From a virus: a stretch of DNA of 20,381 bases. A program made the translations under genes and the position numbers. How positions within the stretch are numbered: the stretch's first letter is position 1; every line of letters begins with the position of its first letter. The notes under the pieces were generated by a model. That model had not been told where the DNA came from and ran no database searches. It was given only the letters and a program-made list of their open reading frames with translations. The stretch spans positions 1 to 20,381 of IMG/VR virus record IMGVR_UViG_3300031225_000015. One strand, written 5' to 3'. Positions 4,356-16,712 of this stretch are shown here, one piece after another.

Positions 4356-5711
4356 TCATGCCATCGCTCTTATGCTGTCGAGTGTGTCGGTGTCGCCCTT
4401 GTCAAACCTGAAGTCACTGAATCTAGGCAGAAATAAAGAAAACGTTTCGCGGTTCTTTGCGTTGATCAGCTCGTTGAACGTCACTTCCATAACTTTTCCT
4501 TCGTAAATGGCGTCCCAGTTTCTGTGAATGTCTTCCCGCATCTTGTCGGTGAAGCCCGACACATCTACGTACACTAAGCCGTCGTCCGTTCCGCATCTCA
4601 CGGAGCCAAAGAGTTTTTCGTTTTTGCCGGTGCCAGGCGTGAGCTCGATCATACGCAGGTCGGCTTCATGCTCTGCTTTGATCTTGACTTCGTGTCTTGA
4701 TGTGCCTTTCTTCCAGAGCCCCCGAGGATGCTTAATGACAGTACCTTCCCCGCCATGCTGCATAACCTCCTCCGCGTGCCCTTGCGCGTCCTCGTAAGAG
4801 AAGACTGTGCGATACTCCACGAAAGAAACGACGGTCAGATTAACGGAGAGGAGATGATTTTGAAGGGTCTGCTTACGTCTAGTTTGAGGGTCTTCGTGAA
4901 CACCTTCGGCGGCAGCGCTGAGAGGGATCGCATCCCAAAGGGTGTAAGTAATCGAGCAGCCTTCCGGCAATTCGTCACGGCCTTTCAGAAGACTATTGAA
5001 AATGCCGTTGCTGGCCTTCCTACGCATCAGAACGCCCCCACGCATTATTCCCAGCTCCCCCGAGTAACGCATGCTGTCTTTCAGGAATAGTAGCTCTCTT
5101 CTCAATGCCTGCCACGCGGGACCGGTCATGTCGAATTTCTGTCCCGCTCTAGTGTGCAGCTGCGGCAAAAGGTCTGGGTCCTTGGGAATGCTCAAATTAG
5201 CGAACATGCCGTCCATCTTGACTTGACTATCAACGCCTTCCTCCCAAGGCCACTCACCAAGGTTTACGTGCTTCGGTAAAGAGCAACGCATATACGGAAA
5301 CGCCGGGATAATCCCCTTTCCGAGAGCCCTCTTGGCAGCCTTGTTCACGATAGCCGCTCCAATTCCGGCGCGTAGGTCTTTGTTTAAGATCCTTTTGAGA
5401 AGTTCTTGCGAGGACGCTCTCAGCACCCTGAATTCGGCCTCCAGAACTTCATGTGCCACATGGCCTGTCAGCCGGCGAGTCGAGAGGTCGTCTAGCGTCC
5501 TCCAGGTGCCTTCGTCGAAGCACCCCTGGCCAGCCCCCACGAGCGGCGTTTGAAGGATGCCGTAGGTCACCAGAGGGTCCAGGGCAGCGACGAGCACGCG
5601 CCGAAACTCGTCCTGCGGCAGCATCGCCGCCAAGAGCTCTTCTTTTTGTTTTGTGGAAGAAGTTGAGTTGATATATTCAATAACATCAAAGATATCTTCG
5701 GAATTCTGCAT
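4356..5711 (-). CDS. ATP-dependent DNA ligase
   Basis: A 451-residue ligase of the nucleotidyltransferase superfamily, close in size to T4 gp30. Residues 1-150 form an N-terminal helical domain. The adenylated lysine is K165 in motif I (QVKMDG). Motif IV is EGTVIKH (322-328) and motif V is HEVKIKAE (340-347). The C-terminal OB-fold includes KLFGSVRCGTDDG and ends with the ligase signature NRETFSLFLPRFSDFRFDK. All key residues are present, so the enzyme is probably active and seals nicks between lagging-strand fragments, together with the phage polymerase, exonuclease and primase-helicase encoded upstream. The ATG at 5711 has AAAGG about 8 bases upstream. Confidence 0.93.
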   Translation of the reverse strand: MQNSEDIFDVIEYINSTSSTKQKEELLAAMLPQDEFRRVLVAALDPLVTYGILQTPLVGAGQGCFDEGTWRTLDDLSTRRLTGHVAHEVLEAEFRVLRASSQELLKRILNKDLRAGIGAAIVNKAAKRALGKGIIPAFPYMRCSLPKHVNLGEWPWEEGVDSQVKMDGMFANLSIPKDPDLLPQLHTRAGQKFDMTGPAWQALRRELLFLKDSMRYSGELGIMRGGVLMRRKASNGIFNSLLKGRDELPEGCSITYTLWDAIPLSAAAEGVHEDPQTRRKQTLQNHLLSVNLTVVSFVEYRTVFSYEDAQGHAEEVMQHGGEGTVIKHPRGLWKKGTSRHEVKIKAEHEADLRMIELTPGTGKNEKLFGSVRCGTDDGLVYVDVSGFTDKMREDIHRNWDAIYEGKVMEVTFNELINAKNRETFSLFLPRFSDFRFDKGDTDTLDSIRAMA

Positions 5712-5715
5712 GAAT

Positions 5716-5913
5716 TTAGCCTTTAAGGTTTTTGATTAACAGCGAGGGCTGACCTCTGTCTAACGGCCAATGGCGCTCTTGACCGCAGTCAACGCAGATC
5801 TTCAAATTCTGCGAGCGGAGTCTCACTACAGTTTCACATTTACAGTATTTCAACGGGATCTCCTTGATCCCAGGGTAGGGTTTTTCCTCCAAGTTGTTTG
5901 AAGTCTTCTTCAT
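5716..5913 (-). CDS. Small zinc-ribbon protein
   Basis: A 65-residue protein with a C-x-C (23, 25) and C-x-x-C (40, 43) pair spaced as in a zinc ribbon, followed by RHWPLDRGQPSLL. That pattern (ribbon, then W.L..GQ.PL) recurs in tiny phage proteins placed next to replication genes. ATG 5913 has AAAGGA about 6 bases upstream but lies 74 bases inside the helicase gene. A TTG at 5853 with AAGGAG 6 bases upstream would give a 45-residue protein starting just before the ribbon and overlapping the helicase by 14 bases, which fits local packing better. Role unknown; nucleic-acid or protein binding is likely. Confidence 0.7.
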   Translation of the reverse strand: MKKTSNNLEEKPYPGIKEIPLKYCKCETVVRLRSQNLKICVDCGQERHWPLDRGQPSLLIKNLKG

Positions 5914-8545
5914 TGCTATCCTTTGATACTTTAGTGACGTTACTTTCTATAACCTCATCAATAGCCATGTATCGCCCCGTTTCAGGAATAAATCGGGCAC
6001 CGGGGACGCGACCGGTTAGTCCCATTGTTCTTGCTTTTAAAACTGACATTTTCAGGCAATTTTGTTCCGCTACGCTGTCGGCAGTCATCGGTCGAGCAAA
6101 CGCAATAATATCAAAAGGAATCTGTTTTGTCGAGCCTGAGTTATGGGTGATGGTGTGGTTGCCTAAAAGAAAGCGCCCATTGCCGTCAAGCACAAAACCA
6201 TAGTAGTCTTGTACACCCAGCGCCTCAACAGTGATGCCTCTCTTTAACGCATTGGTCTGTCTATCAACTTTGTTAACCTTCTGCGTAGGGATTTTATCAA
6301 TATTCCCAGAGATCATGACTTGAAATATCTCGGAGCCATTTGAAGAATAATCACTTGAAATTATCTGAGACCTCATGGTACTGTAGAGGCCAAGAGATCT
6401 TGCAATGCTTTTCACCGTTTTTGCAAGTTCTTGCTCTTTCTGGTAGAAATAAAAATGACTGTCACGTGTTGAGTAAGAGCCATCTGTATCAAGCAAGCCC
6501 GCAAGAAGCTCTAGTCGCTGCGCTCTGCTGGCATATTGGTAAGCTGAAGGGATATGTTTATTTTTAAACAAGGCGAGGTCTTTCAACTTGTTAAGCATTT
6601 CTCCTTTTGTTTCTGTTATGAAGTTGAAATATTCTTTGTTGACATCTTTTGGACTTTTCAAGACTACGCCAAGCTCATTAGCCACTCTTTCAACAATACC
6701 TAAGCGAGCTGCGTCCATGATTCTGAAAGCGGATTTAGAGCCATCGCCAAGCCAAGCGCCTAAAGAGTAAGGTGGGATAAGAAGCTCTTGATGAGGTAAA
6801 TCATAACCCTCGCTGTAGTGTTGCTTACATCTGTGTTGAAAACTGTCACTTTTATTTAAGAAATCTTCTACAGAAATATCAAATAATTTGTCATTACGCG
6901 ACACTGTCAAGACATGGTCTTCATTACAAATGAAAGAATCATTTGAGGTTTTTGTTGTCACTCTGTACATTTGCTGCGAGCCGCGCTTTAACTTTAAAAT
7001 CTGCCTAGGCTGGCCGTTGTCACCAATTAGGCAATTTCCGACTTTTAAATTTTGGACTAGTTCAGAAGTACCGTCCGAAAGCAAGATTTTCGTGTCTCTA
7101 GCAAGGCAGCCTTTTATATCATCTAGAGAAGGCAATCTTCCGTCTTCGAATGATTTTTTGTCGTTTGGGGTCTTCCGCAAGTGTGACACAAGACCAATCC
7201 ACACGTCTGGATATTTCTTAACTAATCTTAAGAGATCATTCATTATCTTGTCTTGCGCCTCGTTCCCTTGCAGGTTGTCTGTGCCCTCTGAGACTAATAT
7301 TGTTATGTGGTCTATGAAAAGTTTCTTACAGCCTACTAGACACATGTACTCTAATCGGTCCATCACACTGCCGTCACTGACAGAGCCTTGGTGATCTAGT
7401 ACTTCTAAGCGATCACCCGCAAACACTTGATCAAATCCCACTTTCAATTCAGCCAAAGGTATCTCTTCTATGGCTCTGTTGCGACGCAACTGCATTCCTG
7501 CTAACGCTTTTCCTGTGTCTCCGGGAGACTCTTCTAAGCTCACTATGCCTACTCGCTCTTCAGAAGTCTCTAGCGTATGCAGTATTATTTCACGCATCAA
7601 AGTACTTTTGCCACTGCCTGTTCCGGAGATAAATAGCGCTATTTCGCCGCCGCGCATTCCCTTTATCTTCGAGTTTAAGCCTGCTAAGCAAGGGGGATAG
7701 GGAATAGAAACAACTGTGTCTGCCGCTTCAATCGCTGCCCATATGGCATCTCTCTTGATTATCCCCGAAGGTGTGTAGGAGGCAGAGTCAAAAATGCAAC
7801 TCATCAGGGCTTTCTCGCCTAAGTCCACTAACACTTCGTTTGCGTCGTTCTTGGGTAGTTTTGTGATGAGTGCCTTGTCGTAACCAACTATTTTTGCGGC
7901 TATTTTTTGAGCTTTGTGGCCTGCGTCGTCTTCATCAAAACAGATTACGACTTCTTTAAAAGAGCGGATCCAAGAGCGATGCTCGACTAGGTGCTCGGCC
8001 ATGGCTGACGAAGAGATACCTACAATAGGGTAAAACTTATTGTAGCGCCGATAAGACGCTTCGGCTACGGCAAGTGTGTCGCACTCACCCTCGCAGATGA
8101 TCAGCCTTTTGCCGCCCCCGTTAAAATGTTCCTGCCCAAAGAGCATCTTTGAGCCGCTGGGCTCCCAACTGAATTCTTTTGGAAGTTTTCGTATTTTATT
8201 CTTCTCTCCGCTCTCGTACGGATAGTAGTGGTGATCAATGTTTCCATCTTCGTTGTACGAAATGCGAACGCCGTAAAACGTAGTTATGTCTTTAGTTATA
8301 GCTCTTGCTTCAAACCCTCTTATTTTGTAGGTTAAAATTTCTGCAGCACTTCTCCGCTTCATTGTGAAATTTTTAGGGCTGGGTGGCGGCGGTTTTGGAA
8401 CATCAACCTTTCCGCTTACAACTTGCTCTTTTGTAAATGCTTTTTCACAAGAGAAACACTTAGCGCCTCCGTCCTCGTAAATTTGCAGCGCATCTGATGA
8501 CGTGCACGATAGACAAGGACGGTTCTTTCCAACTATCCTGCCCAT
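5840..8545 (-). CDS. gp4-like DNA primase-helicase precursor with intein
   Basis: A 901-residue precursor. After removal of the 323-residue intein the mature protein would be 578 residues, close to T7 gp4 (566). Order of domains: zinc-binding domain (C11, C14, C30, C33); TOPRIM primase core (ICEGECDTL at 150-158 and CFDEDDAG at 202-209); RecA-like helicase with Walker A GTGSGKST (308-315), catalytic Glu in SLEES (338), Walker B KKLFIDH (407-413) and H3 GLVSHLRK. The intein splits motif H4 between KG and SGSTKQ. The C-terminal tail is acidic but lacks the terminal Phe that T7 gp4 uses to contact its polymerase. The ribosome site is weak, so coupling from the preceding small gene is likely. Confidence 0.95.
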   Translation of the reverse strand: MGRIVGKNRPCLSCTSSDALQIYEDGGAKCFSCEKAFTKEQVVSGKVDVPKPPPPSPKNFTMKRRSAAEILTYKIRGFEARAITKDITTFYGVRISYNEDGNIDHHYYPYESGEKNKIRKLPKEFSWEPSGSKMLFGQEHFNGGGKRLIICEGECDTLAVAEASYRRYNKFYPIVGISSSAMAEHLVEHRSWIRSFKEVVICFDEDDAGHKAQKIAAKIVGYDKALITKLPKNDANEVLVDLGEKALMSCIFDSASYTPSGIIKRDAIWAAIEAADTVVSIPYPPCLAGLNSKIKGMRGGEIALFISGTGSGKSTLMREIILHTLETSEERVGIVSLEESPGDTGKALAGMQLRRNRAIEEIPLAELKVGFDQVFAGDRLEVLDHQGSVSDGSVMDRLEYMCLVGCKKLFIDHITILVSEGTDNLQGNEAQDKIMNDLLRLVKKYPDVWIGLVSHLRKTPNDKKSFEDGRLPSLDDIKGCLARDTKILLSDGTSELVQNLKVGNCLIGDNGQPRQILKLKRGSQQMYRVTTKTSNDSFICNEDHVLTVSRNDKLFDISVEDFLNKSDSFQHRCKQHYSEGYDLPHQELLIPPYSLGAWLGDGSKSAFRIMDAARLGIVERVANELGVVLKSPKDVNKEYFNFITETKGEMLNKLKDLALFKNKHIPSAYQYASRAQRLELLAGLLDTDGSYSTRDSHFYFYQKEQELAKTVKSIARSLGLYSTMRSQIISSDYSSNGSEIFQVMISGNIDKIPTQKVNKVDRQTNALKRGITVEALGVQDYYGFVLDGNGRFLLGNHTITHNSGSTKQIPFDIIAFARPMTADSVAEQNCLKMSVLKARTMGLTGRVPGARFIPETGRYMAIDEVIESNVTKVSKDSNEEDFKQLGGKTLPWDQGDPVEIL
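6140..7108 (-). mobile_element. Intein with LAGLIDADG homing endonuclease in helicase
   Basis: Residues C480-N802 of the primase-helicase precursor. Block A starts CLARDTKILLSDG; block B carries the conserved His (NEDH, 541-544, with Asn where Thr is usual); blocks F and G are YYGFVLDGNGRFLLGN and HTITHN, followed by Ser803 as the +1 nucleophile. Two LAGLIDADG motifs, YSLGAWLGDG (593-602) and LLAGLLDTDG (680-689), both keep their acidic residue, so the endonuclease may be active. The site in motif H4 corresponds to the classic DnaB intein site. Hand counts of three 60-base lines inside gave 27-33% GC (others 42-48%) against 50-60% in lines of the host gene and ligase, consistent with separate ancestry. 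Confidence 0.95.
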
Positions 8546-8549
8546 GAGG

Positions 8550-8735
8550 TTACTTCACTGCGTTGAGGATAAGAATATTAGTGAGCCCGAAAACTACTAA
8601 CTTGAGGCCCAGAAGGCCTTGATCTGGGATAAGCCTTAGAAGCTCTGTCGCAATAACTAGGTTACCCGCAACTATGAAAAAGAACCCAATAACTGAGCCC
8701 AGGGCCGCGAGGGCGGTCAGGTATTTAGTTGCCAT
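8550..8735 (-). CDS. Small two-span membrane protein
   Basis: A 61-residue protein that is almost entirely hydrophobic: one span near residues 5-28 (ALGSVIGFFFIVAGNLVIA) and a second near 40-58 (GLLGLKLVVFGLTNILIL), separated by a short polar loop (RLIPDQ). ATG 8735 has GGAGG 7 bases upstream and overlaps the nuclease-like gene by 11 bases. Size and topology would suit a holin or a membrane-anchoring factor, but its place inside the replication block argues against lysis. No family recognised. Confidence 0.72.
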   Translation of the reverse strand: MATKYLTALAALGSVIGFFFIVAGNLVIATELLRLIPDQGLLGLKLVVFGLTNILILNAVK

Positions 8736-9189
8736 TGGGTGCCTCCATATTTAGAATTCTATTGAGTCTCTCTTTATGTCTGTCAGTTATCATTTCTTTC
8801 ACCTTCCAGGTTACTTTCTCAATTCGCTTGTTGTACCACATGTCTGTAGTAGGCGCTTCAACTAAACAAAGCGACCAAGTTTCAGCGTAGCCCACAGTTC
8901 CTTTGGTTTTGTACTCTTCTAAACAGAAGAACTCAAACTCTTCGCGCGGGCGATGCTCGAACATTTCGTTTAAGATATTGGAAGACGACGTGTATTTCCT
9001 CCAACCCGTCTCAACCCCTGACCTGGTTTTAAAACTCTTCTTACCTAGATAAAAGCGCTTAAGAAAGTTATCCCGAATCACGTAAACGAAACCGGAGCCT
9101 TTACCCATTTGCGCGGGAAACTGCCAGTGGCCGTTGTTGAAGTCCGGTAGAGCGCCTTTAAAACCTTGCGGGGGCTGTGGTAGTCGCAT
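8725..9189 (-). CDS. GIY-YIG-like putative nuclease
   Basis: A 154-residue protein with FVYVI (34-38), then FYLGKKSF (46-53), WRKYTSSSNIL (63-73), TKGTVGYAE ending at E103, and MWYNKRI (117-123). This order matches a recurring phage family (VY.I......YIGKK......W..Y.GSN..L......TKGEM.Y.E......YYN..I) related to GIY-YIG endonucleases. E103 would be the metal ligand. No T7 gp3-like endonuclease I was found in the window, so this could serve in resolving or degrading DNA branches, but that is inference. ATG 9189 has AAGGA 6 bases upstream; overlap with the DUF4326 gene is 32 bases. Confidence 0.68.
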   Translation of the reverse strand: MRLPQPPQGFKGALPDFNNGHWQFPAQMGKGSGFVYVIRDNFLKRFYLGKKSFKTRSGVETGWRKYTSSSNILNEMFEHRPREEFEFFCLEEYKTKGTVGYAETWSLCLVEAPTTDMWYNKRIEKVTWKVKEMITDRHKERLNRILNMEAPNGN

Positions 9190-9478
9190 CTGCTTTCCTT
9201 TTTTCGATAATTTTTTCTAATTCTTCCACAATGACGTCACCGTGGCAAGGTCGGGGTTTACAGAAGCAGCCCAACCGAAGCCCCAACAAATCAGCAATGT
9301 CACGATCTGTTATTTTAGTTCCCCTGCGGAGTTCTGCGAAGTACGCTCTAAACTTCTCAACAACGTCTTCGCGGGAGCCGTCTTTACCGATTATGAAAGG
9401 ATTACCCCATTTGGAGCCGCGCCCGATGTAGACATCATACGGCTGATAGTTCTTGTTGACCACCACAGTTTTCCGCAT
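9158..9478 (-). CDS. DUF4326 domain protein
   Basis: A 106-residue protein that is essentially one DUF4326 domain: VYIGRGSKWGNPF near residues 17-29, then GSREDVVEKFRAYF and the C-terminal signature LGLRLGCFCKPRPCHGDV. The Gly-rich and Cys/His motifs are fully conserved. The biochemical role of this family is not established; it is frequent in phages and is found beside nucleotide and DNA metabolism genes. ATG 9478 shares its A with the exonuclease stop (TGATG), with GGAG about 8 bases upstream, so the two are probably translated in a coupled way. Confidence 0.88.
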   Translation of the reverse strand: MRKTVVVNKNYQPYDVYIGRGSKWGNPFIIGKDGSREDVVEKFRAYFAELRRGTKITDRDIADLLGLRLGCFCKPRPCHGDVIVEELEKIIEKRKADATTTAPARF

Positions 9479-10293
9479 CAGCGCATCTCCATGACAAAGG
9501 GCCACTCTTTCAGCGTGAAGTAGTCGTTCCAACTTTTCTGTATATGAATTAGTTTACCATTCGCTAATAGGTAATCTTCCCACTCCCCATGATAGACCTC
9601 AAAGTACATACCGCAGACAACTTCCTGGCACTGCTCAGGTGTGTCGCAGTGTTCGATAGCCTTAAGAGCTTTGACAGGGCCAATTCGAGGCAGTCCGGGG
9701 ATATGGTCAGTAGGGTCGCCTGACAGCAGCTGTGAATAGTAGAGCTGCATGGCCGAGAGGTCAGTGACTTCTTCCAGCACTTTCTTCTTGAGGTTGTAGT
9801 GTTTTCCGGGAATGCATTTTAGGTCTTTGTCAATGGAAGCGACCACGAAAGGTATGTCGTAAAATCTACACTCTTCAGCCCAAATACGAAGTAAGTCGTC
9901 GGCTTCTTTGTCGCCAGCATGTAACGCTAACCCCTCTTTTACAGCGTAATCCCGGATCATCTGGACAAAAGGATTCGGAATGCGCCACTTACCGCGATCT
10001 CTTTTATACTCGTGGTATATTCGGTCTCTGAAGTTCTTTCCGTCTTTCATTGCCATCAACATGTTGTCGCTGAAAAGCGCCTCTGACAAATCTTTGAGAA
10101 TGCTGTGAAACAAGTTTACACACTTGCCCCAGGTTTTGACGTCGTCTCTTGGGCTGTAGCCGGGGATGCTTGCTGCGCCTTTGAACCGGTCCATGTCAAT
10201 CCCGTGCAGTCTGAAATACTCCACTTTCTCGCCCCAGGCTCTTTCACAGGCCATATGGGCAACGACGTCTCCGTCGGTTAAAATTACTAACAT
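9478..10293 (-). CDS. gp6-like 5'-3' exonuclease (FEN/PIN family)
   Basis: A 271-residue flap-nuclease family protein. Metal ligands are visible in LTDGDVVAH (D7, D9), GDKEADDLL (E130, D132, D133) and ASIDKDLK (D155, D157). The helix-3-turn-helix DNA-binding element is GDPTDHIPGLPRIGPVKA (192-209). Length and gene position next to the polymerase match T7 gp6, which removes RNA primers and degrades DNA 5' to 3'. The start was set at ATG 10293 because GGAG lies about 8 bases upstream; a GTG at 10308 precedes it without a better site. It overlaps the preceding gene by 7 bases. Confidence 0.9.
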   Translation of the reverse strand: MLVILTDGDVVAHMACERAWGEKVEYFRLHGIDMDRFKGAASIPGYSPRDDVKTWGKCVNLFHSILKDLSEALFSDNMLMAMKDGKNFRDRIYHEYKRDRGKWRIPNPFVQMIRDYAVKEGLALHAGDKEADDLLRIWAEECRFYDIPFVVASIDKDLKCIPGKHYNLKKKVLEEVTDLSAMQLYYSQLLSGDPTDHIPGLPRIGPVKALKAIEHCDTPEQCQEVVCGMYFEVYHGEWEDYLLANGKLIHIQKSWNDYFTLKEWPFVMEMR

Positions 10294-10490
10294 GCTGTTC
10301 TCCTGCACAATACTTCAATAAGCTCTTGAGCAATCTCTACGCTGGTTTGTAAAAAAGCGGCGAGCTCTTCGGCCTTTGCATTAGTCGTCACGCAGCGCCC
10401 CTCCAGGGTGGCCATCTCTACATCAGTGTCGCAGCAAGTAAGGCGATAGTCGTTAGCGTCTTCTCCGACGATATGTACGCAGTCATGCAT
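10287..10490 (-). CDS. Small hypothetical protein
   Basis: A 67-residue acidic protein from ATG 10490, which overlaps the stop of the Cys-rich gene by 8 bases, as is typical here. A TTG at 10535 with GAGGG nearby would add 15 residues but would overlap the previous gene by 53 bases. The first half has several Cys (CVHIVGED, LTCCDTD) and the second half looks like a helical hairpin (AEELAAFLQTSVEIAQELIE). No known family. The start is uncertain. Confidence 0.6.
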   Translation of the reverse strand: MHDCVHIVGEDANDYRLTCCDTDVEMATLEGRCVTTNAKAEELAAFLQTSVEIAQELIEVLCRRTAC

Positions 10491-10840: not shown

Positions 10841-12781
10841 TCAGTGTACCTCATACCAGTTGTCTCCGGTTTTACCTTCGCCATCCATGATTGTGATTCC
10901 AAACAGCTTAGGGCCTTCTTGGAAAGCTTTTTGGCCTAGTTCAGCGGCTCTTTCAGCAAACTCTTCGGGTACTTGGAAGTCCAGTTCGTCATGCATGAAT
11001 ATGCATGGCTTGTAAGGGATTTTTTCTTCTTGTAAGTAGCGTCTCAAAAGCAAACAAGCGCCTGCACATGTTGCTTTTTCACACGACTGCAGAAGGTATA
11101 CGAGCAGTTTGTGGAAGGAATCTACGTAGATTCGAACGCCGCCAATCGAGGGAATGTATCCATTATTGTTACCTCTTGTTGACGTCGCCCGATAAACTTT
11201 CGCCAGCTTCTCCAGCAAAGCTTTAAACCCTGGGACGGCTGCGGTAAAGCCTTTCTTGAGTGTGTTGCCTTGTTTGTCTTTCTGTACGCCAAAAATGTAA
11301 CCCCAGAGTTTTCCGCCAGAGGCCCCGAAAAGGAAAGCATAGAGAATACGCTTTGCAGCACTTCTTTTCTTTCCGGCGAGGACTTCTTCAAGACTGTGTT
11401 CTGCGTCAGCCTTTGCACCTTGCATCACAAGGTACTGATCCCAGTCAATGCCCATGCTCCCCAGCACTTCTTCTAGCTTACTCGCATTATAAGTATGAAT
11501 GTCCTCGTGTAGTAAAATTCGAGTAAATTCGTCATTATTCAAGTAATGCGCAAGGCCCCTTGCTTGGTTGCCTGAAGAATCACAGCCAACTACTTTCCAG
11601 CCCTTGTCGGCTTTAAACAGAGAACGCATTTCAGGGCCGTAAAGAGAGTCGCTGGAAGGTACATTTACAACAATCTTGTGACGGGCTCTCATACTGGGGG
11701 TGCCAAGGGTGAAGCAGGAACCGCGCAAACAGCCGTCTCCGCCTATGTTTTCAAGCCAAGTATTGAGGATGCTGTGACGTGATCTGATAGTGCGATATTC
11801 AGAATACAACTTGCCGTCGCCGCCAAGAAACTCCAGAGAATCGTCGGTGATTTTTGGAGTTGTTCGGACTTTCTCAAACGTCACTGGGTTTTGCTTTGAA
11901 TTGTACTGTGTTGGCACCCAGCCTTCTCTGAAGAGGAATATTTTGACGTCGGCGACGGAGCTCAGCTTGAGGTGATGAAACTCAACACGACTATAAGAAC
12001 CGTCAACTAATCGTCCTGCATCTTCCTGCCCCTCTTCGGGATCAATTCGAAACCAGTTTGCGGTGTGCTGATTGTAATCGCCGTTCTTTTTCCATTTAGG
12101 CTCTTTTGCGGGTACTTCGCCCTTGCAAGCATCGACGGCAACTGTCTTGATACCGAGCTTTGATTCCAAGAGTTCTGTTGTGCTCGCAATTTTGTCTGTC
12201 ATCTCCGCAAACAAGACTTTTGCGGATTCTTCATCAAAAGGCCATCCGTACCATTCTGCCTCTGCGCACCAACTTGAAATTGCATGTTCTGCCTGAAGAT
12301 AATGAACTACGTTGGCATTTTCACTGGCCAGGCCTGTAAACTCTTCAAGCAAATAGTTATAAACTTTTAAGTTCAAGTCTACGTCTCTTTCGCAGTACAG
12401 CAACATTTCTTCCGAGTACTCGTGAAAATCTTCAAAGTCAAGCTTGTCGTACTCAAAGTATAAACCCCAAACTTTAAGAGAATGGCCGGCATCCCCAAAA
12501 CGCTTGTAATTTAACACTTGGCTCATGAGCAGGGTGTCGTGTATTCTGCAGCTATGAGGCAAGTCAAAATCAAAATGTCGCTTCAACACTAGCAGGTCGA
12601 AGCCAATTATATTGTGGCCGATAACAACCTCAGCCTTGCCGAGCTTCTCACGCCAGCCTTCATCGCCTTCAAGATAGTAAAATTTTTCTTTTGTGTCAAT
12701 GTCTTGAAGGTAAACTATCCAGCAGCGATCAAAAATCCAGAGATAGCCATTCGTTTCGATATCGAATACGTATTTTGACAT
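10841..12781 (-). CDS. T7-like family A DNA polymerase with proofreading exonuclease
   Basis: A 646-residue polymerase. The 3'-5' exonuclease domain is complete: Exo I FDIETNG (D7, E9), Exo II GHNIIGFDLL (D62), Exo III YCERDVD (Y129, D133). Palm motif A is CDSSGNQARGLAH (D401), the O-helix motif B is RSAAKRILYAFLFGA (R473, K477, Y481, F485), and motif C is FMHDELDFQ (H597-E599). The end GEGKTGDNW parallels the T7 gp5 C-terminus. It is 58 residues shorter than T7 gp5, and the thumb region that holds the thioredoxin-binding loop in T7 (about 215-300 here) is shorter and different, so host thioredoxin may not be its processivity factor. No ribosome site lies close to ATG 12781; a hairpin precedes it. 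Confidence 0.95.
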   Translation of the reverse strand: MSKYVFDIETNGYLWIFDRCWIVYLQDIDTKEKFYYLEGDEGWREKLGKAEVVIGHNIIGFDLLVLKRHFDFDLPHSCRIHDTLLMSQVLNYKRFGDAGHSLKVWGLYFEYDKLDFEDFHEYSEEMLLYCERDVDLNLKVYNYLLEEFTGLASENANVVHYLQAEHAISSWCAEAEWYGWPFDEESAKVLFAEMTDKIASTTELLESKLGIKTVAVDACKGEVPAKEPKWKKNGDYNQHTANWFRIDPEEGQEDAGRLVDGSYSRVEFHHLKLSSVADVKIFLFREGWVPTQYNSKQNPVTFEKVRTTPKITDDSLEFLGGDGKLYSEYRTIRSRHSILNTWLENIGGDGCLRGSCFTLGTPSMRARHKIVVNVPSSDSLYGPEMRSLFKADKGWKVVGCDSSGNQARGLAHYLNNDEFTRILLHEDIHTYNASKLEEVLGSMGIDWDQYLVMQGAKADAEHSLEEVLAGKKRSAAKRILYAFLFGASGGKLWGYIFGVQKDKQGNTLKKGFTAAVPGFKALLEKLAKVYRATSTRGNNNGYIPSIGGVRIYVDSFHKLLVYLLQSCEKATCAGACLLLRRYLQEEKIPYKPCIFMHDELDFQVPEEFAERAAELGQKAFQEGPKLFGITIMDGEGKTGDNWYEVH

Positions 12782-14076: not shown

Positions 14077-14484
14077 CTACGCGGCATCCCATTCGTCCAG
14101 CTCGCTCCGGAGCTCGGGCGGCATTTCTAGGTCATCGCTGAACAAGAAGATTCTGCCAAAGCCATCATTAACAAGTACCAGGACTTGCCAGATGTTACCC
14201 GACCTTTCGGCGTATTCCCATCTGACGAACTCTGTGCCAGATGGAAATTGAGCTAAATTGAGCATATGCCCACTTTCTTTCAGAAGTTCAACTTCCGGAT
14301 AATCCTGCGTCAACTCTCCCGAAGACTCCATGTACACCAGATGGCCCATGTGGTCCATCGTAAGATCTTCTTCCGGATCATCCACAAAATTTCTGAAGCA
14401 GAGATCATATTGCTTCATTGCCACTTCTTTTATTTCAGGGTTTTCTAGGGCCTCAATGTCGGCCAGCGATTTCATTATGATCAT
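14077..14484 (-). CDS. Acidic hypothetical protein downstream of RNA polymerase
   Basis: A 135-residue strongly acidic protein (for example VDDPEEDLTMDHMG and SDDLEMPPELRSELDEWD). ATG 14484 overlaps the RNA polymerase stop as ATGA, with GGAG 11 bases upstream; ATG 14475 is an alternative. The centre (FPSGTEFVRWEYAERSGNIW, then QVLVLVNDGFGRIFLFSDD) alternates strand-like segments. Its high negative charge and coupling to the polymerase gene would suit a polymerase-binding or DNA-mimic protein, but that is a guess. Family not recognised. Confidence 0.7.
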   Translation of the reverse strand: MIIMKSLADIEALENPEIKEVAMKQYDLCFRNFVDDPEEDLTMDHMGHLVYMESSGELTQDYPEVELLKESGHMLNLAQFPSGTEFVRWEYAERSGNIWQVLVLVNDGFGRIFLFSDDLEMPPELRSELDEWDAA

Positions 14485-16712
14485 GAAAAACAATACTCCG
14501 AGTCAAGTACTAAAGATAAGTCTAATGTGCCTTTGTTTAGCTGAGCGTCGTCTGCGCCAATGTCTTCAAAGATAGCAGCTAGGGGCTCTGTTTGGTAAAG
14601 CTCTAAAAAGGACTCACGAACAATTGTGTATAAATCGTCCATGTCAGCCAGCAGCGCGCCAAAAGAGTCGTGAACGGTTGTCACGGGAAAATTGGCGCGG
14701 CAGCTTGTAACAGTTAAGTGGGCTGCGTCAAGACTGTGAATAATGTTTGGGGATGCTCCTTGTGATTGTTTCCCTTTAGATGGTTTTGGAAGCTCCAGAT
14801 AAGAGATACTGAGCTGGAGAGTGTTTTCGTAATAGCCGGTTTTCTTTTTCTCCCCCGACGGTGGTCCGTATTGTACCCAGGTCTTCTTAACTTCTCCTTC
14901 AACGTAATGTTGGACTACCGGGAAGTGCGTTAGCGGTACTGTCCAAGAAAGAAACTCACCGGCTTTTTCGGCAGCTTTGCCCGCTTGCTCAAAAGTAGAC
15001 AGCAAACGCATGGGCCTTTCCAGACAAGTTTCGCAAACTTTGAAGAGGCTTCTCCCCAGATAGGCACCCCAGGAGTGCTCCATAAAAGTCAGTAACTCTA
15101 TGCCGTGCCGCCTTGAGTCATCGATAACCTGTTCGCCAAGACCGTAGGGCTTTGCTCCATACGGAAGAGTCATAGTTCCTCTTTTAACAACTTTCCGCTT
15201 GTGCTTTGAGTCGTGGATTCTTAACCAGAAAACAGGAGCGGCTCTCACTAATATGGCTCTGTACTTTTCTCGGTACGCTAAGAGTTCTTTGACTAGCTCT
15301 TTTCGCGTCTCGGTCCGGGGCTCCGTGGCATGCACTCGCTTTTTGATTTCAATGATCGTGTCTATGCATTTTTCGGCAGTCTTAATAGCCCTCCCCGACA
15401 TCTCGGCTTTTGCGCGGTCTAGCTCTGCCCACATGTGGTGTGCCACAAACATATACAAGTCACCGGGAAGTTCTGAAGGCACAAGATTAACGTGAGGGGC
15501 GGTTATTTCGTCTAGCATTAAAGCTGAAAGATGCTGGCTTCCGTTGTTGGTTCCGTCTACAAACGCTTCTAAGTGGGATTCATAGGAGTAGTCGTCTGAA
15601 TCCCCCATTTGGTGTAGCCGCAGCTTTAAGAATTCTTGGCATGCCGCTAAAAACTGCCAAGGCTTGTCTGCATTCATCCAGTTCTGATTTACTTTCGGAT
15701 TCTCGGCATAGGAGACAATTATCTCTTCGTTGTCAAGTACCCACATGTACCTGTCTTTCAAAGGTATCTTGTCTGTTTTTGCCTCGTCCTCTCTTCCGGC
15801 GTCACCTGCCCAATTGGAAGAGATACTCACGCACAGCCAAAAGAAGCCCTGTTTTCCGATAGCCTTCTTGTCATCTCGCAGTAGTAGCCCTTTGGCTAAG
15901 TCTGAGCCTTGCTCGTTAAGGTACGCTGTAGAAACATACTTGCGACCTCGAAAATCAAACGTGTACAAGTGGTAAAAAGTGCTGTGTAAGAACCTGGCGG
16001 CGATGTTGCTAATTGCTCGCGTTTCTCTCATTTTAGTGGACCGCGCTTCAGAGCTGTGGGCGCGCCAGATATTATTGAACGCAGCTGCTCTGTTTCGGAA
16101 GGCCCATAAATGGATCTCGTAAACGTCCCGGTTGATCCGCCAGCCTGTCTGCTGGGACTTGTTTACTGTTTCAAACACAAGCGGGTGGTCTTCTGGGGTT
16201 AGTGTTTCGCGTATCTTGTGGTTTGTTTTGACCAACAGAGCTCCTGTCTCGTGGCGGAAGCTCTCCCAATCAGCATAAGGGGTTTCTGAAGGTATTTTTT
16301 GAATAGTGGCCGGAGGTAACTGCGCCCAAAGTTTTTGGATGCCCTCGTCGTCGACAACTTCCACAAGATACGTGGCGTGTCGCCCTTTGCCACTCGGGCC
16401 TATTTTTACTTTGATATAGCCGAGCTGTTCGAAACTGTATAAAATAAACGCTCCGGTCTTCGCGGCTAGGGCAGTATCTTTTTGTTTACTTTCTTGGGAA
16501 AGCAGTTTGCGGCCAATCGCGCAAATCGTTTCGGTTAGAAATAAGGGTGCGGGGTTCAGCCCTTTTTTAGGTCTTGTATACAAGTAGACCGTTCCGATTA
16601 TGTTCCCGATGTGGGCCTCTAAGTTTACTTCTTTGAGGTACTTCAATGGGTTTCGTGGGGAGATCTCTGTGGACACTCTATGATTCAAATTGCCCAGAAT
16701 TCTCTCAAACAT
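14481..16712 (-). CDS. T7-like single-subunit phage RNA polymerase
   Basis: A 743-residue polymerase. The catalytic core is complete: DFRGRKY (253-259), metal-binding D386 in FVDGTNNGSQH, R506, K510 and Y518 in KRKVVKRGTMTLPYGAK, and D682 in TVHDSFGALLAD. The end, LVLDSEYCFS, parallels the T7 C-terminal foot. It is 140 residues shorter than T7 RNA polymerase (883), nearly all from the N-terminal domain, and the specificity-loop region (about 631-656) is about ten residues shorter, so its promoter must differ from T7's. ATG 16712 has AAAGGA 7 bases upstream. It would transcribe the phage genome from elements such as those at 16899 and 13999. Confidence 0.95.
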   Translation of the reverse strand: MFERILGNLNHRVSTEISPRNPLKYLKEVNLEAHIGNIIGTVYLYTRPKKGLNPAPLFLTETICAIGRKLLSQESKQKDTALAAKTGAFILYSFEQLGYIKVKIGPSGKGRHATYLVEVVDDEGIQKLWAQLPPATIQKIPSETPYADWESFRHETGALLVKTNHKIRETLTPEDHPLVFETVNKSQQTGWRINRDVYEIHLWAFRNRAAAFNNIWRAHSSEARSTKMRETRAISNIAARFLHSTFYHLYTFDFRGRKYVSTAYLNEQGSDLAKGLLLRDDKKAIGKQGFFWLCVSISSNWAGDAGREDEAKTDKIPLKDRYMWVLDNEEIIVSYAENPKVNQNWMNADKPWQFLAACQEFLKLRLHQMGDSDDYSYESHLEAFVDGTNNGSQHLSALMLDEITAPHVNLVPSELPGDLYMFVAHHMWAELDRAKAEMSGRAIKTAEKCIDTIIEIKKRVHATEPRTETRKELVKELLAYREKYRAILVRAAPVFWLRIHDSKHKRKVVKRGTMTLPYGAKPYGLGEQVIDDSRRHGIELLTFMEHSWGAYLGRSLFKVCETCLERPMRLLSTFEQAGKAAEKAGEFLSWTVPLTHFPVVQHYVEGEVKKTWVQYGPPSGEKKKTGYYENTLQLSISYLELPKPSKGKQSQGASPNIIHSLDAAHLTVTSCRANFPVTTVHDSFGALLADMDDLYTIVRESFLELYQTEPLAAIFEDIGADDAQLNKGTLDLSLVLDSEYCFS

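Follow-up and report, generated by a model that had tools for sequence, protein, structure and literature searches.

The stretch of viral DNA analysed here (20,381 nucleotides, hereafter the window) encodes on its minus strand a primase-helicase resembling gp4 of phage T7, and its motif H4 very probably harbours a class 1 intein of the PI-SceI lineage, a mobile element predicted to splice itself out of the helicase and to home into alleles that lack it. After translation, the Hint domain would excise itself: Cys1 of the intein would attack after Gly479, Ser803 would take over the thioester and Asn802 would cyclise, joining KG to SGSTKQ and restoring the DNA-binding loop of H4. In co-infected cells, cleavage of the intein-free H4 coding sequence is predicted for the LAGLIDADG domain, and the intein would then be copied into the cut allele by recombination. 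From sequence, we infer that the window's copy splices and that its endonuclease cuts DNA. The unspliced helicase would be inactive, because H4 is a DNA-binding loop, as described for DnaB (Kelley et al., 2018; PMC6195587) and by homology for gp4.

Host protein and insertion point

The precursor gene (positions 5840..8545, minus strand) encodes 901 amino acids with the intein in frame, and was identified from its open reading frame and from Pfam, phrog_239 and T7 gp4 matches. Residues 1–479 and 803–901 are the gp4-like exteins. The N-extein (7109..8545, minus strand, 479 residues) contains a Cys4 zinc region with CxxC pairs (8447–8515, minus strand), a Toprim domain and a RecA-like core, with the Walker A motif SGTGSGKST at 7601–7627 (minus strand). 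The C-extein (5843..6139, minus strand, 99 residues) starts with SGSTKQ, its first serine being Ser+1, as defined by the empty alleles of relatives. The extein sequence matches the primase/helicase family phrog_239 with an E-value of 7.3e-116 and contains a Pfam Toprim_2 match. A profile made from 18 intein-free relatives matches T7 gp4 (6n7i) over positions 8–546 with an E-value of 7.6e-91, aligning DLRGSGALRQ of gp4 to DDIKGSGSIKQ of the relatives. Zinc region, Toprim domain and RecA-like helicase are thus present in a single chain with homology to gp4, and the phrog_239 and 6n7i matches bear out the T7-type primase-helicase that a sequence-only reading of the window had named as the host.

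The intein sits between Gly479 and Ser803, in DDIKG-SGSTKQ of motif H4 (a hyphen within a motif marks the insertion point). The first half of the motif, DDIKG with Gly-1, is encoded at 7109..7123 and the second half, SGSTKQ with Ser+1, at 6122..6139 (both minus strand). The insert starts with a cysteine directly after DDIKG and ends in HN before SGSTKQ. At this point, DDI(K/R)GSGSIKQ runs on uninterrupted in more than 20 related phage genes, a count that is not a frequency, since the loci were found via chosen peptide patterns. Comparison of the intein edges with these uninterrupted sequences makes the boundaries exact to the residue. The exteins restore the conserved host sequence, so that their proposed rejoining as KG-SGSTKQ within H4 is confirmed by the empty alleles; had relatives kept the segment as an unspliced domain, the intein reading would have been in doubt, and they show precise empty alleles instead. 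Directly after the insertion point, the window allele reads SGST (6122–6139, minus strand), and relatives have SGSI or SGSV.

Intein architecture

The intein comprises 323 residues, Cys1 to Asn323, with a Hint domain and a LAGLIDADG endonuclease; precursor residues 480–802 map exactly to 6140–7108 (minus strand, as are all its motifs). Block A, CLARDTKILLSDG, contains the Cys1 nucleophile (7070..7108), and block B, SFICNEDHVLTVSR, contains Asn62-x-x-His65 (6896..6937), comparable to Asn76-x-x-His79 in PI-SceI. The two LAGLIDADG motifs, SLGAWLGDG (6740..6766) and LLAGLLDTDG (6479..6508), provide the acidic residues Asp122 and Asp209. Blocks F and G, YYGFVLDGNGRFLLGNHTITHN, end with the penultimate histidine and the terminal asparagine (6140..6205). 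The class 1 residues Cys480 (Cys1), Asn802 and Ser803 are present and invariant among the aligned relatives, as are His65 of block B and the penultimate His322 in ten aligned sequences. Block A Cys1, NEDH of block B, both LAGLIDADG motifs and the HN-S end are kept in relatives, barring some degenerate endonuclease motifs.

In Pfam, the insert matches Hom_end_hint (E = 8e-20) and LAGLIDADG_3 (E = 7.4e-7), both exceeding the curated cut-offs; the intein N-terminal model TIGR01445 stays below threshold on it (19.5 bits, with 24.5 required). Structures of PI-SceI, the VMA intein, are the closest solved relatives, with E-values of 2e-17 by sequence and 1.2e-24 by profile. An AlphaFold model of the intein, calculated from a ten-sequence input, has a pLDDT of 85.6 and a pTM of 0.86, and its top eleven PDB matches are all PI-SceI, with TM-scores of 0.74–0.80 of query length (0.80 for 1lwt) and an E-value of 1.2e-23 for 1dfa, which identifies the Hint fold. 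Blocks A, B, F and G and the two LAGLIDADG motifs, already noted in the sequence-only reading, are therefore upheld by Pfam, the PI-SceI matches and the alignment, and the absence of any intein match, which would have spoken against that reading, was not what was found. The precise empty alleles, the conserved Cys1 and HN-S residues and the PI-SceI fold speak against an ordinary inserted domain retained in the mature helicase, and we give that reading almost no credence.

The asparagine in place of threonine in block B had been put forward as a possible cause of slow N-terminal cleavage. PI-SceI has N76-A-T-H79 and all nine aligned relatives share the asparagine, so there is no reason to expect slow cleavage; to judge by the alignment, asparagine is the normal state of the PI-SceI-type lineage and no sign of slow splicing. 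The GC content, stated earlier to be well below that of the host gene in several lines of the intein, is indeed lower in the intein, but the gap is modest (41.1%, versus 45.7% in the N-extein and 44.4% in the C-extein).

Empty, occupied and decaying alleles

Contigs L001, L002 and L004, from other metagenomes, contain the window's version unchanged, which argues against an assembly error. Other inteins at the same junction are present in L003, L051, L052, L053–L055, L056, L068, L069 and L070. Those of L053–L055 and L068 are mutually close, leaving at least seven clearly different inteins at the exact site besides that of the window. A scan of cellular genome contigs with the intein alignment found no relative.

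The window and L003 are 92.0% identical in the DNA of the intein, and only 69.7% and 58.2% in that of the N- and C-exteins; synonymous divergence (dS) is 0.28 in the intein and saturated in the exteins. In the extein tree, L003 pairs with the intein-free L007 (support 100/100); in the intein tree, it pairs with the window (99/99). On either side of the insertion, the identity of L003 and L007 is about 92%, extending for 5.4 kb in the upstream and 1.7 kb in the downstream direction, with the similarity interrupted at the H4 site. In a patch of 40 bp upstream and 10 bp downstream of the insert, the two show 13 differences, with 2.6 expected (P ~1e-6), the window siding with L003 at ten of these and with L007 at two; as the 50-bp range was picked after seeing the data, this P value and that of the following contrast are optimistic. 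Outside the patch, the window sides with L003 at 30 sites of the gene and with L007 at 36, making the contrast with the patch a modest one (Fisher two-sided P = 0.026). Such a patch would be expected of a short co-conversion tract that came from a window-like donor, and because of it we favour gain of the intein by L003 over loss by L007. L007 itself has SASIKQ at the insertion site (5408–5425), not SGSIKQ, and may not be the exact ancestral allele of L003.

What the three alleles show, at the level of their DNA, is horizontal transfer of the intein together with exchanged flanking DNA adjoining it. Comparison of near-identical phages with and without the insert indicates that it is a selfish element passed from phage to phage. 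L003 and L007 form a near-isogenic natural pair, with and without the intein, and the window, which is of a diverged lineage, supplies a donor-like allele; together they are an unusually clear record of transfer between phages, and with them the endonuclease's target range can be tested directly.

The same pattern could stem from older transfer and ordinary phage recombination, if the intein were splicing-competent but fixed and immobile, its endonuclease dead or dispensable. Degenerate-looking endonuclease motifs among relatives fit this alternative: the first aspartate is replaced by asparagine in L051, the second by glycine in L069, and both are lost in the more distant intein of L039. Against it, the window, L003, L052, L053, L056, L068 and L070 have kept both catalytic aspartates, and the exchanged patch hugs the insert. 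The endonuclease part is also under purifying selection between the window and L003 (dN 0.032, dS 0.31), and dN/dS is about 0.1 to 0.25 per domain, indicating purifying selection on both domains. We regard an immobile intein as unlikely. A homing cycle predicts a mix of intact, decaying and empty alleles, and intact, decaying and empty alleles are what is observed.

The insert might also act as a switch, keeping the helicase inactive until splicing is triggered by a signal, for instance single-stranded DNA, redox state or hexamer formation. An insert in the DNA-binding loop should indeed block function, and other inteins splice conditionally, for instance DnaBi1 of Mycobacterium smegmatis (PMC6195587). 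However, DnaBi2, the H4 intein of the same DnaB, splices fast and is insensitive to stress (PMC6195587), and in the window's intein all splicing residues are intact, the block B asparagine being normal for its class. Furthermore, a near-isogenic phage does without the intein, which shows that a switch is dispensable. Conditional splicing is very improbable here.

Comparison with known inteins

PI-SceI, the VMA1 intein of Saccharomyces cerevisiae, is the best PDB match by both sequence and fold, and shares the combination of Hint and LAGLIDADG domains, the NxxH of block B and the HN terminus. It is longer (454 residues, compared to 323), and its host protein and insertion site are unrelated; the sequence match to the window's intein leaves its residues 57–206 unaligned. 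The inteins of Klebsiella phage JD001, Salmonella phage St162 and Vibrio phage 1.009.O belong to the same broad clade, with 33–37% identity over their full length. They also reside in a nucleic-acid motor, but in the Walker A motif (GK-T) of a different helicase and not in H4. A structural match over the whole intein, with 31% identity, is BFVD entry A0A6J7WW61, an 860-residue 'TOPRIM domain containing protein' of an uncultured Caudovirales phage, which is probably another intein-bearing phage primase.

The H4 inteins of DnaB (Ssp DnaB and M. smegmatis DnaBi2, site a) resemble that of the window in motif, Gly-1, Ser+1 and class, but their host is DnaB, not gp4. In PDB constructs, the Ssp DnaB intein is inserted at ESG-SIEQ; in the aligned motif, KG-SGSTKQ lies two residues upstream of this. 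Invasion of the same helicase loop in both enzymes, as suggested from the sequence, therefore stands for the motif and not for the insertion point. The label DnaB-b used in that suggestion was swapped: in Kelley et al. (2018; PMC6195587), 'a' denotes the H4 site and 'b' that in the P-loop. Structures of the Ssp DnaB intein are absent among the PDB sequence matches of the window's intein. In a partial search of the literature, including that on T4 mobile elements, phage CBB and jumbo phages, we found no description of an intein in a T7-type primase-helicase; a TOPRIM intein has been described in mycobacteriophages. The H4 insertion site in this enzyme is apparently undescribed so far, and extends the set of loops in replicative helicases that inteins have invaded.

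Walker A inteins in the same enzyme family

In L039–L041 and L044, members of the same primase-helicase family, H4 is uninterrupted and a 318-residue intein is inserted in the Walker A motif, at SGTG-SGKST (4934–5887 in L039), with both LAGLIDADG aspartates lost. In the intein tree, that of L039 groups with the H4 inteins (98/97), but its branch is long (1.88) and identity is only 35%. One lineage might have hopped between the look-alike G-SG sites of Walker A, SGTG-SGKST, and H4, KG-SGSTKQ, by ectopic homing, in which case a selfish element would be sampling the catalytic loops of one enzyme; we consider this decidedly unlikely. Vibrio phages RYC and 1.101.O have Walker A inteins at GK-T and GK-S, unlike the SGTG-SGKST of L039. 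All these gp4-like proteins are the same or a related primase-helicase, and their inteins are of the same broad family as that of the window. The two Vibrio phage proteins (L060 from 1.101.O and L059 from RYC) are primase-helicase-like and carry the annotations 'hedgehog/hint' and 'putative helicase'. An alignment with RYC suggests that the intein of 1.101.O starts with a serine (GDTSVGK-SFCAGT...HN-STF). Inteins at GK-T are also found in helicases of Klebsiella, Salmonella, Escherichia, Pseudomonas and Vibrio phages.

Neighbouring genes

The primase-helicase gene belongs to a region in which genes for an ATP-dependent ligase (4356–5711), an exonuclease (9478–10308), a DNA polymerase (10841–12781) and a single-subunit RNA polymerase (14481–16712), all on the minus strand, form a T7-like replication cluster. 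A gene for a DUF4326 protein (9158–9532, minus strand; 1.4e-26) adjoins the replication genes. Just upstream of the helicase gene is a gene for a SegE-like GIY-YIG endonuclease (8725–9189, minus strand; PF19835, 6.3e-14). Similar open reading frames are likewise located upstream in the intein-free L007 and in L026.
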